Shown here in pieces: positions 15,694 to 31,581 of a DNA stretch of 34,645 nucleotides (position 1 is its first letter; each line of letters starts with the position of its first letter). The position numbers and the translations under genes are program-made. The notes under the pieces were generated by a model that saw only the letters and a list, made by a program, of their open reading frames with translations, did not search any database and was not told the DNA's origin. The stretch comes from a virus. The stretch covers positions 1 to 34,645 of IMG/VR virus record IMGVR_UViG_3300008107_000182, one strand, 5' to 3'.

Positions 15694-16773
15694 ATGTCAT
15701 TCACAAGATTAGCTCCATCAGACTTTGTAATTAGCTCCGACTCGATTACAGCTCCGGCATGGAGCTCCAATCAGCCTACGCTTGCAACATTTTATACCGC
15801 ATCCTCAACCGTAACATCTGCAATCAGCGCCGGCGCGTTTTACCTTAACGTGTACCAGACTCAAAGTTCTGCAAACGGAGCAGCAGTTCAATTCGCTATC
15901 GCATACGGTAATCAGTACGGATCAGGTTCGAAATGGTATAATAATCTAGTACCTGGAGTATCACCATCGCTGACAACCTATCGTCAATACGAAACCCTCG
16001 TGTATGGTCCCGCTTTATCAGGCTCTACCCAAGGATTCAATTTCGGGGGTCTCGCTTCCAGTGCGCCCGATATTTTTGCGATAAACGTAGACAGGAATAG
16101 GTATAAGCAAACGCTATTCCCGGGAACATTTAATATTAGTCTATCAGGTTCAGGGGGCCAGATAACTTTATGTGATAACAGTAATAATGTTACTACAGTA
16201 ACCTATTTAGATTGTGGTAGAGTATTCAACCTTGTATCCGGATCCTTCGGTAGCGCTATTAGCAACTCAGTATCTGGAGCTATTGCACCAGGTTACACCG
16301 TATCCGGCTCTTATGGATTCTTCTTACCTGATATCGGAACAATTATTCTCAACCCTAGTGCACTTGCATTACCGGCAGTTTCGGGAGGTATAAATTATGT
16401 AATCGATAGAGCAAACTACGGAGTAGTGTCTGTAAACGCTAGTTCATCTTATACTTCAACTAACAACACGCTGTTATTCCAAGCAATTTCAGCAAGCGGT
16501 AATTTTCAGCTGAATTCCGAGGAGACAATATCATCCGATTATGTATTCGTAAGAATCGGTAATTCAGAGTATAACTACTCTTCTAATCCAACATTTGCTT
16601 CAGGTTCAGGAGCAGTATTATGGCCAACAATGATTTATAACCCGCAGACTTATATTACAACTATCGGCTTATATAATGAAGCAAGTGAGCTTTTAGCAGT
16701 AGCTAAGATGTCCGTACCGCTGGTAAAAGACTTTACAAAAGAAGCACTAATAAGGGTTAAGTTAGATTGGTAA
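15694..16773 (+). CDS. Beta-rich virion structural protein with repeated C-terminal domain
   Basis: The protein has 359 residues, rich in Ser, Gly, Asn and Tyr, without charged clusters, typical of baseplate/fibre proteins. Residues about 280-359 form a domain with RIGNSEYNYSSNPTF and YITTIGLYNEASELLAVAK, ending in VKLDW. The same domain makes up most of the 124-aa protein at 18844, so it is a reused module. The middle carries DCGRVFNLVSGSFGSA, which I do not recognise. It lies between two other structural genes with 6- and 9-base gaps. Confidence 0.6.
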   Translation: MSFTRLAPSDFVISSDSITAPAWSSNQPTLATFYTASSTVTSAISAGAFYLNVYQTQSSANGAAVQFAIAYGNQYGSGSKWYNNLVPGVSPSLTTYRQYETLVYGPALSGSTQGFNFGGLASSAPDIFAINVDRNRYKQTLFPGTFNISLSGSGGQITLCDNSNNVTTVTYLDCGRVFNLVSGSFGSAISNSVSGAIAPGYTVSGSYGFFLPDIGTIILNPSALALPAVSGGINYVIDRANYGVVSVNASSSYTSTNNTLLFQAISASGNFQLNSEETISSDYVFVRIGNSEYNYSSNPTFASGSGAVLWPTMIYNPQTYITTIGLYNEASELLAVAKMSVPLVKDFTKEALIRVKLDW

Positions 16774-16782
16774 TAAAATAAG

Positions 16783-17388
16783 ATGAGTAGAGCAGCAAAC
16801 AGTCTTAGGACTTCAGATGTTATTACTACTCCTATCAAACTAAAATACAGCTCTTCTTTTGAATCGAGTTCATTCGGAGAATACGGTATTCAGGTTGTGA
16901 AAGGAGTGAACGGTGCAGTGACTATAACTGGATCAATCTCACAAGAGACGATCAACTATTATTCAATACGTCACTTATATTACTCAAACTACCTGACAGG
17001 ATCCTTTCCGGTTTCAGCATCAAGCGCCTTTAATTACCCCCAATCTACAGCCGCATCAGGAACATTTGACGCAGATGTACGCCATTTTCCAACTCAATCA
17101 GGTGCAGAAGTAACTGTAATCTCAATCCCGAGAGGGGTTTATGGCCAACAAATCTCAAGACAAAGTTTTATCTTATCATCTTCTTTTTACTGTATAGTAG
17201 ATGACGGAAACGGTAATTTGATAGATATCGGAAACGCAAATAGCGGCTTATATATACTTAACGGATATTTTAACGCTACTAATTATTTCGTATCACAATC
17301 CGAACCTGCAATTCACGTAGGAAACCTGATATATCCACAAGGAATGGCTATTATAACATCCCCCGCCTATCAAGCATTTTTCCCGTAA
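16783..17388 (+). CDS. Virion structural protein, unknown role
   Basis: The protein has 201 residues. It begins with a polar segment (RTSDVITTPIKLKYSSSFES) and continues with aromatic-rich beta structure (YYSIRHLYYSNYLTGSF, then ISIPRGVYGQQISRQSFIL and YCIVDDGNGNLID). The high Tyr/Ser content and lack of enzymatic motifs fit a baseplate or fibre-attachment protein. The same residue pattern recurs, as I recall, in metagenomic T4-like phages. It is the last gene of the unit starting at 15022; a new TATTTAT element follows 13 bases after its stop. Confidence 0.55.
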   Translation: MSRAANSLRTSDVITTPIKLKYSSSFESSSFGEYGIQVVKGVNGAVTITGSISQETINYYSIRHLYYSNYLTGSFPVSASSAFNYPQSTAASGTFDADVRHFPTQSGAEVTVISIPRGVYGQQISRQSFILSSSFYCIVDDGNGNLIDIGNANSGLYILNGYFNATNYFVSQSEPAIHVGNLIYPQGMAIITSPAYQAFFP

Positions 17389-17401
17389 GTTTAATTTGAG
17401 A

Positions 17402-17408
17402 TATTTAT
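17402..17408 (+). promoter_or_regulatory. TATTTAT late-unit motif, copy 4
   Basis: TATTTAT preceded by AGA and followed by TT, located in the 38-base gap between structural genes and 18 bases before the ATG of the tail fibre gene at 17427. It would give the fibre its own late promoter. Confidence 0.5.
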
Positions 17409-17426
17409 TTATAAACGAATTCAACG

Positions 17427-18833
17427 ATGGGTCTAATATTCCGCGTCTCCTCTAGCGCTAATACAGGAGCTACATATATCAAAGACGCACCTCTCGCATT
17501 TGATGAAGGAGACGGTAACTTTGCCTGGCTTGCAGCTAATCTATCCGCAAGCGCAGTTAGTATTTCTGGAGCCGTTAGCCTTAGCGGAACCTTCAGTATT
17601 CCTAGTCTAACAACTACAGTTCAAAACAACGTAGTTACTGTAGATACAACTACCGGTCGCCTATATTATACCGCTTCATCTGCGTTCGGAGGAGGTGGAG
17701 GAGGATCAACTGATACCTCTTCTTTATTGATTACCGCTTCTGCAGTTAATAATATACTTACATTTACTAAAGGAGATAGTTCTACTTTCGTCGTTAACGT
17801 TAATACAGGATCTCTATTTGGAACTTCGAGCTGGGCCCTTAACGCTATAACAGCCTCTCATTCTTTAAATACGATATCCGCATCTTATGCGCTAAGTAGT
17901 TCTTACGCTTTATCTTCATCTTTCGCAACTACTTCATCTTTTACTATAAGCTCTTCTTATGCATTAAGCAGTTCGTATAGCGTATCTTCATCTATTGCAT
18001 TCAGTAGCTCCTACGCTTTATCTGCTTCAAACGCATTAACTGCATCTCATCCTATTTCTTTATCCGGTTCTAGCTTATACTCTACTAATCCTTCAACAAA
18101 AGGCTTTAGCTTGATAGACGGGATATTCCTAGGAAGTAATGCAGGTAAGGATGCTGCAAATGCTAATAATTCTATTTTTATCGGAGTTAGTGCAGGCTTT
18201 GGAGCTACAGGTTCTACAAACTCAAACTTCATAGGATACTTCGCAGGACAGAACGTATCCGCAGCAGGAGGTTCTAATTTTATTGGAGCATTAGTTGGAC
18301 AAAATGCAATAAGTGCATCTAATTCAAACTTTATAGGCGGATTAGCAGGAGCAGGAGCAACGTATGCTTCAGAATCTATATTTGTAGGTAGTTCAGCAGG
18401 ACTTAATGCAGCTAGCGCATCTTACTCGACCTTTATAGGATATAAAGCAGGGCAAAGGGTTGGCGGCGGCGGAGCAGCAGGACCTGGAGTAAATAATATC
18501 GTATTAGGTACCGGTATAACTGTACCAAACGATATCAACCATGCAATTAATCTAGGAGGTATAATTTATGCTACCGGCTCACAATTTAATCTGAGCGGAA
18601 CACCAGTTGCAGGGCCTGTAACCAACGGTAAGGTAGGTATTAACCAGTTCAGCCCACAGTACCCGTTAGACGTGAGCGGTAGTGTAGGAATCTCACAAGT
18701 ATTACATCTAGCCGACCTCAATCCATTACCATCAGGAAATCCAGGAGACCTAGCAGTGTCCGAGTCTATGTTATATTTCTATGCCTTCTCCGGATCATTT
18801 GTAGGATGGAAGAAAGTATCTTTAATTCCATAA
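17427..18833 (+). CDS. Tail fibre protein built from hexapeptide and 17-residue repeats
   Basis: The protein has 468 residues. The N-terminal about 140 residues probably attach to the baseplate. Residues 152-211 are ten gap-free hexapeptide repeats, consensus SSYALS. Residues 232-350 are seven 17-residue units, consensus S-x-F-[IV]-G-x-x-A-G-x-x-A-x-x-A, like the beta-roll repeats of trimeric autotransporter heads. The C-terminus (LHLADLNPLPSGNPGDLAVS, then YAFSGSFVGWKKVSLIP) resembles tips of phage fibres. I infer a trimeric fibre with a stalk, a shaft and a receptor-contacting tip. It has its own TATTTAT element. A short protein with a domain of the 15694 gene follows after 10 bases and may be a partner. 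Confidence 0.7.
   Translation: MGLIFRVSSSANTGATYIKDAPLAFDEGDGNFAWLAANLSASAVSISGAVSLSGTFSIPSLTTTVQNNVVTVDTTTGRLYYTASSAFGGGGGGSTDTSSLLITASAVNNILTFTKGDSSTFVVNVNTGSLFGTSSWALNAITASHSLNTISASYALSSSYALSSSFATTSSFTISSSYALSSSYSVSSSIAFSSSYALSASNALTASHPISLSGSSLYSTNPSTKGFSLIDGIFLGSNAGKDAANANNSIFIGVSAGFGATGSTNSNFIGYFAGQNVSAAGGSNFIGALVGQNAISASNSNFIGGLAGAGATYASESIFVGSSAGLNAASASYSTFIGYKAGQRVGGGGAAGPGVNNIVLGTGITVPNDINHAINLGGIIYATGSQFNLSGTPVAGPVTNGKVGINQFSPQYPLDVSGSVGISQVLHLADLNPLPSGNPGDLAVSESMLYFYAFSGSFVGWKKVSLIP
17880..18059 (+). repeat. Ten tandem 18-bp repeats coding hexapeptide SSYALS
   Basis: Ten consecutive 18-base units without insertion or deletion encode [SA]-S-[YFINH]-[ATSP]-[LIVTF]-[ST]. Codons vary between units, so the protein pattern is kept while DNA diverges. 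The periodicity points to a fibrous triple-stranded stalk. Such arrays can gain or lose units by recombination. Confidence 0.8.
18120..18476 (+). repeat. Seven tandem 51-bp repeats coding a 17-residue beta-roll-like unit
   Basis: Units start at residues 232, 249, 266, 283, 300, 317 and 334 of the fibre, each exactly 17 residues; the last is degenerate and Gly-rich. Invariant or near-invariant are Phe at 3, Gly at 5 and Gly at 9. The spacing suggests one coil turn per unit. Confidence 0.75.
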
Positions 18834-18843
18834 TTAGTTATAG

Positions 18844-19218
18844 ATGTCTTATACGTTATTTTTAACAGCCGAAACTACAATCTTTCAAAACGAGGTAAAG
18901 TGTAGGGTATCTGAGAACGATTTTAATTTCTCTCAGAACCCATCAGTCTTTATCAAAAAACTAATTATTTCCGGTTCTAGAGCACTACCTTTTTTCGGCC
19001 CCGTAAGCGGATCCGGGACGCCAATCAGTAGCTCATTTGGTCAAGTTGTAGACGGGGCAATCTACGACTTTATGACAGGGTCATCATTCCGCCCTTATGC
19101 TACGACAGTAGGCCTCTACAACGAAAACAACCAACTTCTCGTTGTAGGTAAGCTCGCCACACCTTACCCCATCCCTGCCAATACGGATATGACTTTTATA
19201 GTCAAGTGGGATAGTTAA
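18844..19218 (+). CDS. Small structural protein, single copy of the domain ending the 15694 gene
   Basis: This 124-aa protein has residues about 20-124 paralleling the C-terminus of the protein at 15694. VKCRVSENDFNFSQNPSVF corresponds to the RIGNSEYNYSSNPTF segment, and ATTVGLYNENNQLLVVGKL corresponds to ITTIGLYNEASELLAVAK, with a shared final VK-x-D motif. It follows the tail fibre by 10 bases. I infer an adaptor or cap using the same interface as the longer protein. Nothing suggests enzymatic activity. It is the last structural gene before the nuclease/primase group. Confidence 0.6.
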   Translation: MSYTLFLTAETTIFQNEVKCRVSENDFNFSQNPSVFIKKLIISGSRALPFFGPVSGSGTPISSSFGQVVDGAIYDFMTGSSFRPYATTVGLYNENNQLLVVGKLATPYPIPANTDMTFIVKWDS

Positions 19219-19229
19219 AGAAAATTTTT

Positions 19230-19697
19230 ATGTTAAAAAAATGGTTTACGTTTGACGGAGAAGAATTGATTGAATACGATTCTGTAGAAAATTTCCCCAA
19301 AGGCTGTATTGGTTTTGTATATGAAATTACCAATACTAAGACAGGAAAATTTTATATCGGCAAAAAATCACTTTTTTCGAATACAAAGAAAAAGTTAACT
19401 AAAAAAGAGCTAGCCGAGCACACAGGTCCGGGGAAGAAACCTACAAAGAGGCTAGTAATAAAAGAATCTAATTGGTTAGATTATTGGGGATCAAATAAAA
19501 CAATGCTTAAGGAAATAGAGGAGCAAGGTGTAGATAATTTTAAAAGAAAGATTTTAAAGTTTTGTTTCAATAAAAAACAGCTTACTTATTGGGAAGTACA
19601 TTTTCAGTGCATAAATGGAGTTCTATTAAGAGAAGATTCATATAATGATAACGTTCTCGCTAAGTTCTTTCGCAGGGATTTGGTAGAACCAGAATAA
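19230..19697 (+). CDS. GIY-YIG family nuclease
   Basis: The protein has 155 residues. The GIY-YIG signature appears as GFVYEI (28-33) and FYIGKK (41-46), with a Lys-rich stretch after it. A conserved-type Glu in LTYWEVHFQ (Glu122) matches the metal-binding Glu of this fold. In T4-like phages such proteins act as homing (seg-like) or DNA-repair/restriction-like endonucleases. This one is free-standing between the structural and replication genes, as homing nucleases often are. The degenerate first motif (GFVY for GIY) leaves activity open. The ATG is preceded by AAAGAAAATTTTT, with no clear Shine-Dalgarno site. Confidence 0.65.
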   Translation: MLKKWFTFDGEELIEYDSVENFPKGCIGFVYEITNTKTGKFYIGKKSLFSNTKKKLTKKELAEHTGPGKKPTKRLVIKESNWLDYWGSNKTMLKEIEEQGVDNFKRKILKFCFNKKQLTYWEVHFQCINGVLLREDSYNDNVLAKFFRRDLVEPE

Positions 19698-30981: not shown

Positions 30982-31581
30982 ATGAACCTCGATAAACTAA
31001 AAGGACACGTACCGGACAATGTAATAGCACAAATTCCTCAAGTAGGAGAAAAATTTGCTATTAATACCCCTCTCCGTCTAGCGCATTTTCTTTCCCAGTG
31101 CGGACACGAGAGCGGTAACTTTAGAGTAGTAAATGAGAATTTAAATTACGGTGCAAAAGGTCTTTTAGGTCTTTTTAAAAAATATTTTCCTGACGAAGCT
31201 AAAGCAAAATTATACGAGCGTAAACCAGAAAAAATCGCTAACTTAATTTACGGAGGTAGAATGGGTAACGGACCTGAAGCATCAGGGGATGGATGGAAGC
31301 ACAGAGGAAGAGGTTATATTCAATTAACAGGAAAAGATAACTATACAGCATTCGGTAAAGCAATCGGTGTTGATATTTTAGCAAATCCAGATCTTGTAGC
31401 TACTAAATATCCATTACTATCTGCAGCCTGGTATTGGAATAGCCGTAAGCTAAATGCTGTAGCCGATCAAGGTGCAACTGATGCAGTAGTTACTAAAGCA
31501 ACCAAACTTGTTAACGGAGGTACCATTGGCCTTGCCGATCGTATAAAACATTTTAAAGAGTTTCATCATTTACTATCTTAA
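30982..31581 (+). CDS. GH19-type endolysin
   Basis: The protein has 199 residues. It matches the glycoside hydrolase family 19 chitinase-like fold used by phage lysins. Glu43 in CGHESGNF is the likely catalytic acid, and Glu52 in NENLNYGAKGLLGLF the second Glu. DGWKHRGRGYIQLTGKDNY, near residue 105, is the substrate-groove signature. It has no signal peptide or membrane segment, so a holin is needed; I do not see one in the neighbourhood. It lacks the packaging tag even though it lies inside the tagged cassette, so it is probably cytoplasmic lysis enzyme rather than cargo. Confidence 0.85.
   Translation: MNLDKLKGHVPDNVIAQIPQVGEKFAINTPLRLAHFLSQCGHESGNFRVVNENLNYGAKGLLGLFKKYFPDEAKAKLYERKPEKIANLIYGGRMGNGPEASGDGWKHRGRGYIQLTGKDNYTAFGKAIGVDILANPDLVATKYPLLSAAWYWNSRKLNAVADQGATDAVVTKATKLVNGGTIGLADRIKHFKEFHHLLS

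Follow-up and report, generated by a model that had tools for sequence, protein, structure and literature searches.

The window, i.e., the whole stretch of DNA analysed here (34,645 nucleotides, positions 1 to 34,645 of the IMG/VR virus record IMGVR_UViG_3300008107_000182), harbors an open reading frame (ORF) of 468 amino acids (17427..18833, + strand, as are all its parts, the two flanking half genes, and the adjoining endonuclease ORF). Its central region is built of two different repeat arrays, and the ORF itself lies between two others that match the opposite ends of a gene that is single in other phages. Three questions are raised by this locus: which kind of protein is encoded, how its arrays might be folded, and what its position between the two half genes means.

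Organization of the ORF and of its two repeat arrays

The N-terminal part (residues 1-87, 17427..17687), which contains the motif EGDGNF and is 74-84% identical in three relatives, is probably, judging from its sequence, the end that attaches the protein to the virion; by eye, it resembles the starts (LTY.EMD.NF) of genes 167 and 168 of Flavobacterium phage immuto. It is followed by a module of about 30 residues, NNILTFTKGDSSTF (residues 99-129, 17721..17813), found also in loci L008-L010, by ten hexapeptides of consensus SSYALS (residues 152-211, 17880..18059), by a connector of 21 residues (18060..18122), in which SGS is invariant in five relatives, and by seven 17-residue units of the form NFIGxxAGxxATxAxxS (residues 233-351, 18123..18479). 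After the second array come a conserved cap, NNIVLGT.I..P......INLGGII (18480..18626), a candidate capping-loop motif, VGINQFSPQYPL (residues 403-414, 18633..18668), and a C-terminal part, LPSGNPGDLAVS..LYFY..GWKK (18726..18830), which is kept in five relatives, the last residues excepted.

The initial annotation had described this region (17880-18476) as two exact, gap-free repeat systems of 10 and 7 units with codon drift. The period is indeed exact and each array is free of gaps, but the units are not identical and the two arrays are separated by the 21 residues of the connector. Three of the ten in-frame hexapeptides are exactly SSYALS and the tenth (ASHPIS) is weak; no two 17-residue units are identical, six of them being good and the seventh fading past its first half. 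The start of the region fits, while its end is one codon out of phase and corresponds to 18479. In the hexapeptide stretch, self-identity peaks at periods 24 (0.58) and 6 (0.55), and its maximum (periods 2-35) was equalled in one of 10,000 shuffles; in the 17-residue stretch, the peaks fall at periods 17 (0.44) and 34 (0.41), and none of 10,000 shuffles equalled them. The codon drift is confirmed at the DNA level, only 20-31 of 51 bases being shared between the longer units and 5-16 of 18 between the hexapeptide units. Tandem Repeats Finder, at a score of 30, reported neither array, but only a 16-base AGCAGG run inside the 17-residue one. Since the units have diverged strongly in DNA sequence and neither array is reported by this program, the period is held at the protein level.

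Predicted fold of the arrays and of the segment that follows them

The protein was modelled with AlphaFold as a single chain, on a 23-row alignment in which the arrays of other phage contigs were trimmed to about their last seven units plus the cap. This model (mean pLDDT 63.6), which replaced a three-row one (mean pLDDT 40.9, with block means of 61-85 over the array), predicts a beta-solenoid with one coil per 17-residue unit: each of the seven coils has a strand at xFI, six of them also show a second bridge near AT, and the pLDDT block means are 73-96 in the first six units and 77 and 52 in the last. Among the structure matches listed, the closest solved folds (best Z 11.4) belong to the beta-solenoids at large; several of them we take to be right-handed. 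Against the PDB, Foldseek gave no match below E 1 with either model, and sequence searches with the whole protein or the three-row profile gave nothing below E 0.36; a five-row array profile reached E values of 0.75 and 0.89 with unrelated proteins, which were rejected. A library of viral structures yielded an uncultured phage protein (44% identity, E 1.7e-10, TM-score 0.45), whose UniProt name is "Trimeric autotransporter adhesin YadA-like head domain-containing", and H9NCD4 (37% identity, E 1.7e-8), taken to be gp257 of Sphingomonas phage PAU on the basis of protein length and identity.

The structural constraint that had been read from the periodicity is supported by the single-chain solenoid as far as the 17-residue units are concerned; over the hexapeptides, the pLDDT of the same model is 27-41 and no fold is resolved. 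These low values, the serine-rich composition, and the lack of a solved relative by sequence (no PDB match up to E 10 for the hexapeptides alone) would suit a flexible, disordered, and possibly glycosylated linker rather than a folded shaft. No Pfam model of the hexapeptide-repeat transferases (left-handed beta-helix) matches the whole protein or its N-terminal part. We nevertheless consider the linker doubtful: the period is strict, without indels within the array, the Tyr/Leu alternation recurs in relatives at 68-71% identity, and a fold existing only in the trimer would likewise give a low pLDDT in a single chain. As a shaft, the hexapeptides would fold only in the trimer, each chain then supplying, per turn, one short strand (Y-A-L) and one SSS turn.

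The 17-residue array had also been interpreted as a variant of the trimeric autotransporter head roll. As described in the available sections of PMC9543794, Gly-8 is invariant in the 14-residue layer of such heads, Ala-6 is conserved, and positions 5 and 7 are usually hydrophobic; rare insertions occur between position 14 and position 1, and the layers of UspA1 are mostly of 15 residues. The consensus of 527 distinct 17-residue units, collected with an expression that restricted positions 2-4, 7, and 8 and from a DNA pattern that demanded Phe at its own two units, is N (55%), F (94%), I (52%) or L (40%), G, two variable positions, A (90%), G, two variable positions, A (48%) or N (34%), T (58%), one variable position, A (43%) or G (39%), two variable positions, and S (54%) or N (40%). 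Gly is present in 527 of 527 units, as required by the collecting expression. In the fetched ORFs, the spacing between units is 17 residues in 580 cases, 16 in 17, and 18 in six, the collecting pattern having asked for 17; in the window, the layer is 17 residues long in all units, versus 14 or 15 in the YadA type.

The array might be a genuine left-handed parallel beta-roll of the YadA type, each layer having gained three residues at the inter-layer loop. Its Gly, with Ile or Leu before it, would correspond to Gly-8 and position 7 in the layer of 14 residues; the rare insertions and the 15-residue layers of UspA1 (PMC9543794) also speak for it, and one of the viral matches bears the YadA name. 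However, the place of Ala-6 is taken by Phe in 94% of the units (only F, I, V, and L being allowed there by the expression), and that of position 5 mostly by Asn or Thr. Moreover, no YadA Pfam model was retrieved for the fibre protein (E up to 1), for five array members (E up to 10), or for eight further proteins (E up to 0.1). The fold matches listed are other beta-solenoids, several presumably right-handed; that no YadA chain is among those listed carries no weight. We regard a true YadA roll as rather doubtful. For a variant head roll, the support is no more than suggestive: Gly and its hydrophobic predecessor agree, while the Phe, the lack of Pfam matches, and the general character of the structural matches do not. 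Both systems would share a periodic roll whose layers each carry a Gly (demanded, in the collected units, by the expression), but the YadA head has layers of 14-15 residues, Ala-6, and a membrane anchor, whereas the window protein has 17 residues and Phe, and its C-terminus matches no Pfam model of the autotransporter membrane-anchor barrel up to E 1. Our fair guess is a larger roll, in which Phe would fill the added space. A repeat-containing tail fibre with a C-terminal YadA domain has already been published for a marine phage (PMC3909814); the available sections of that paper mention neither 17-residue units nor a split gene.

Of the 36 matches to the cap in the fetched loci (some of them near copies), 31 sit after at least three in-register units; the cap is also found in phage PAU and in Leptolyngbya phage Lbo-JY46. 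The segment following the cap, VGINQFSPQYPLDVSG, gave a profile match to the Bdellovibrio fibre Bd2133 (8ond; whole-sequence E 2.6e-5, best stretch 0.0047) and to Bd3182 (8ojn; whole-sequence E 0.0015, single stretches 5.6 and 4.2), reached only with a profile of 23 related arrays. Within it, residues 403-414 read VGIN....P...L and align with 8ond and 8ojn at equal spacing. The capping loops of the trimeric beta-helix of Bd3182 are R656-H669 and F752-H765, and the aligned loops exceed the published motif by one residue (PMC10769870, available sections); by position arithmetic, these are exactly the loops that the two matched stretches of Bd3182 include. The match is weak per stretch and lies outside both repeat arrays. 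As it involves fibres that are trimeric, a trimer is the best reading of the window protein, and this segment the best evidence for it.

The capping-loop segment is thus common to the window fibre, to the Bdellovibrio mosaic adhesive trimer (MAT) fibres Bd2133 and Bd3182, and to S74 phage fibres. The likeness does not extend to the arrays, and the Bdellovibrio proteins belong to a predatory bacterium whereas the window fibre is a phage gene. The C-terminal S74 peptidase-chaperone, moreover, has no Pfam match in the fibre protein up to E 1. This domain is absent in the NS74 subgroup of such fibres, so that the window fibre would be at most like the NS74 subgroup of the S74/MAT type.

The proposed slot between two halves of a tail gene

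The fibre ORF fills a slot (17389..18843, to which no strand is assigned) between an N-half (16783..17388) and a C-half (18844..19218), which match the two ends of a tail gene consisting of one ORF in relatives. Gene 166 of immuto matches the N-half with 24% identity (E 2.6e-6) and the C-half with 37% (E 1.7e-21); the single gene of Microcystis phage Mel-JY01 does so with 25% (E 1e-8) and 35% (E 5e-19). The C-half retrieved 119 relatives from IMG/VR, the best 80 of which were used. In their flanks, the tail gene is whole, with no gap at the slot, in 12 loci and split in 26 (with 0.9-4.2 kb between the halves), while in 42 the N-half lies outside the flank. A whole-contig search of these 42 recovered the N-half in four, each time in an open frame of 582-971 amino acids and, by position arithmetic, upstream on the same strand at 7.5-9.7 kb. 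The tally for the best 80 of 119 loci is therefore 12 whole, 30 split, and 38 undecided or, by distinct C-half sequence, 6, 17 (window included), and 27, respectively. Whole genes have a short linker at the break point, where the N-half of the window stops and its C-half starts. The slot borders share no direct repeats of at least 12 bases; promoter-like sites are as many as in shuffles, and a search for terminator-like sites gave none.

It might be that nothing has been inserted, i.e., that the N-half and the C-half have always been two genes, which have been fused in some phages. Both halves are indeed kept as separate ORFs with conserved ends, and the C-half distantly resembles the end of the neighboring gene at 15694. 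Trees were built on distinct C-half sequences only, 52 in the first and 23 in the second, from which 27 sequences of unknown state and two long-branched outgroups had been dropped. A single change of state is all that their well-supported branches demand, and with shuffled labels the mean is 5.5 changes, versus 5 for the real ones. On the other side, whole genes are found in immuto and Mel-JY01, both of them distant outgroups, and here and there within the group; the best trees require five changes or more, and a single clade of whole forms is rejected, marginally, by the AU test (p 0.047). On balance, an original state of two separate genes seems unlikely to us. In Mel-JY01 (L184, 14490-23436), five adjoining ORFs match the tail gene at 15694 of the window, whole or at its end, suggesting that this family multiplies in tandem.

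As for the content of the slot, Pfam was searched with 20 ORFs located upstream of C-halves: 12 reach the curated cut-off, one falls below it, and seven have no match. The families at cut-off are glycosyltransferases (several families), HtrL_YibB, carbamoyltransferase, and FkbM methyltransferase. Repeats abound in other cargo, which looks Ig-like by eye and has no Pfam match. In the cargo count, only ORFs of at least 150 amino acids that match no conserved anchor were taken as cargo. Since the N-half was not seen in their contigs, many of these ORFs are placed in the slot only indirectly, and all the carbamoyl- and methyltransferase ORFs belong to this group. Among the confirmed split loci, glycosyltransferase ORFs or members of their clusters are present in L211, L252, L255, L257-L259, and L263, and members of the HtrL_YibB cluster in L231 and L245. 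An extended N-half ORF (261-1252 amino acids) occurs in 12 of the 26 loci that are split in the flanks, three of these being near copies, and in the four found by the whole-contig search, as if cargo could also fuse to the N-half. Long unnamed extensions continue the frame of the N-half in L211, L225, L241-L243, L262, and others.

The split gene is immediately followed by an ORF for a SegE-type GIY-YIG endonuclease (19230..19697; PF19835, E 3.5e-25), which was detected in 71 of the best 80 of 119 loci, whole or split, and whose identity to its relatives (72-76%) is close to that of the fibre. This enzyme might drive the exchange of cassettes; the proposal is weakened by its presence in 11 of the 12 whole, i.e., empty, loci.

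Taken together, these data allow us to put forward, tentatively, a standing slot at the fixed linker: the tail gene would be whole in some phages and in others split by interchangeable cassettes for host recognition or glycans, among which we would include repeat fibres, glycosyltransferases, other sugar-modifying enzymes, and repeat-rich surface proteins. The fibre cassette would be exchangeable, and the two halves would still work together. Pelagimyophages have a variable region among structural genes, the host recognition cluster, which includes tail fibres and glycosyltransferases; it lies between VrlC and gp14, not in a split gene, whereas the slot of the window would be inside one (PMC7029224, available sections). 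No account of this arrangement appears in the titles and abstract openings retrieved from the open-licence literature, and it is the split-gene slot, not the fibre itself, that looks new.

A putative tail fibre and the number of its units

The fibre gene is embedded among the tail genes of a tailed phage. Genes for gp25 and baseplate J lie upstream of it, the window also encodes a terminase, and the terminase and the wedge protein are closest to those of immuto (55.8% and 43.7%). In immuto, this tail cluster is followed by genes with the annotations tail fiber and tail spike. Those of this neighborhood, genes 167, 168, and 170, include one (gene 170) with SASYA-type and IG..A-type repeats (by eye); there, however, the fibres follow a whole tail gene (gene 166), whereas in the window the fibre is inside the gap. 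Farther downstream, an ORF (30982-31581) resembles class I chitinases (Glyco_hydro_19, PF00182) and is possibly a lysis enzyme.

No S74 or other Pfam domain was found in the C-terminal part, and neither the whole protein nor five array members match Pfam at its cut-off. In PHROGs, the whole protein has no match up to E 0.1; with the array part, a "tail spike" family is reached by four of five array members (best E 0.015; E 0.3 for the window protein), and one array member matches a family of unknown function at E 0.00031. The designation "fibre" given by the initial annotation is supported by the N-terminal motif, by the capping loop, and by the place among tail genes.

In comparison with L006, the fibre has an amino acid identity of 71% (dN 0.23), versus 91-100% (dN 0.01-0.08) for four flanking tail ORFs and 72% for the GIY-YIG ORF; versus L121 and L007, the values are 69-71% for the fibre and 78-96% for the four flanking tail ORFs. 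The hexapeptide row (14 residues or no match) was left out of this comparison; in the base-by-base comparison of the gene between contigs, no use was made of the raw mismatch count for L007, a pair with indels. In three relatives, the dN/dS ratio of the fibre is 0.13-0.18, suggesting constraint, though dS is saturated.

We consider it likely that the phage is a large, contractile-tailed relative of immuto and that the ORF encodes its tail fibre, a receptor-binding protein. The EGDGNF domain would attach this protein to the virion and would be followed by a glycine-rich hinge, the serine-rich hexapeptide shaft, the seven-coil solenoid, the cap, a capping loop of the trimeric beta-helix type, and a short C-terminal tip. 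Both the attachment through the N-terminus and the binding to the host are putative roles, assigned from sequence features. A repeat-built tail fibre is a known kind of protein; for the 17-residue solenoid, no solved relative was found.

Some of the relatives may not be virion fibres, since gp257 of PAU (L011, 3701-5710) starts, by eye, with a signal-peptide-like stretch, which is odd for such a fibre. This start in a protein sharing array and cap, and the occurrence of glycosyltransferase-type genes in the same slot of relatives, might indicate a phage-encoded adhesin displayed on the infected cell rather than on the virion. For the window protein this is quite improbable, as it lacks such a start, has an N-terminal motif of the type found in the annotated tail fibres of immuto, and is encoded within a tail gene cluster.

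The 17-residue pattern was found in at least 120 stretches and the hexapeptide pattern in 45. In a survey that skipped the duplicates L001 and L013-L017 and kept the copies L002-L005, L006, and L164, 114 ORFs (copies included) carry at least three in-register units or at least five hexapeptides; the longest unbroken runs of the array-bearing fetched ORFs span 3 to 18 units (threshold three). According to the resulting table, both arrays occur together in ten distinct ORFs, five of which are the family of the window fibre. A search of bacterial genome contigs gave no relative of the window array and one short relative of the PAU array, in a Clostridium contig.

Four other IMG/VR contigs, with different sample numbers, harbor a fibre gene identical over 1404 bases. 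Ten hexapeptides and seven units are found in each of the relatives at 71, 71, and 68% fibre identity, and 14 and eight in the one at 58%, where the gaps at one place of the array total exactly 17 residues; the hexapeptide numbers 10 and 14 are counts by eye, the counting expression, which omits the last one, having returned 9 and 13. L193, whose contig is cut at its start, has no hexapeptides and ten 17-residue units, its C-half being 90% identical; in the same slot (L193, 1-1285), the hexapeptides give way to three tandem variants of the NNILTFTKGDSSTF module (about 30 residues; NNVLTFTKGDNTTF). L207 has, in the same slot, a fibre with a similar N-terminus and a different remainder. In PAU gp257 and in XAI97394.1 of Lbo-JY46, the array (six and four units, by eye) is followed by the same cap, without hexapeptides and with other N-termini (35-38% identity over 34-40% of the query).

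The capacity of unit number to change, as anticipated by the initial annotation, is thus seen across lineages (7, 8, 10, 6, and 4 units), not among near relatives or the four identical contigs. With 10 and 7 in the near relatives and 14 and 8, 0 and 10, six, and four elsewhere, unit number changes slowly, by whole units, alongside module exchange, and not by slippage. A rapid length switch, in which slippage would alter unit number within a population, might account for whole-unit differences between lineages, but it is extremely improbable given that the units share too little DNA (20-31 of 51 bases) to slip easily, that the four other contigs of different sample numbers are identical, and that 10 and 7 are retained at 68-71% fibre identity.

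A fibre composed of two unrelated repeat systems probably determines the range of bacteria that a phage can infect, and the 17-residue module, of which no solved relative was found, is present in many environmental phage contigs. If the slot is real, it would pose the question of how a split tail protein still works, and it would provide a defined genomic address at which the cargo for host recognition and surface glycans might be read by comparing contigs.
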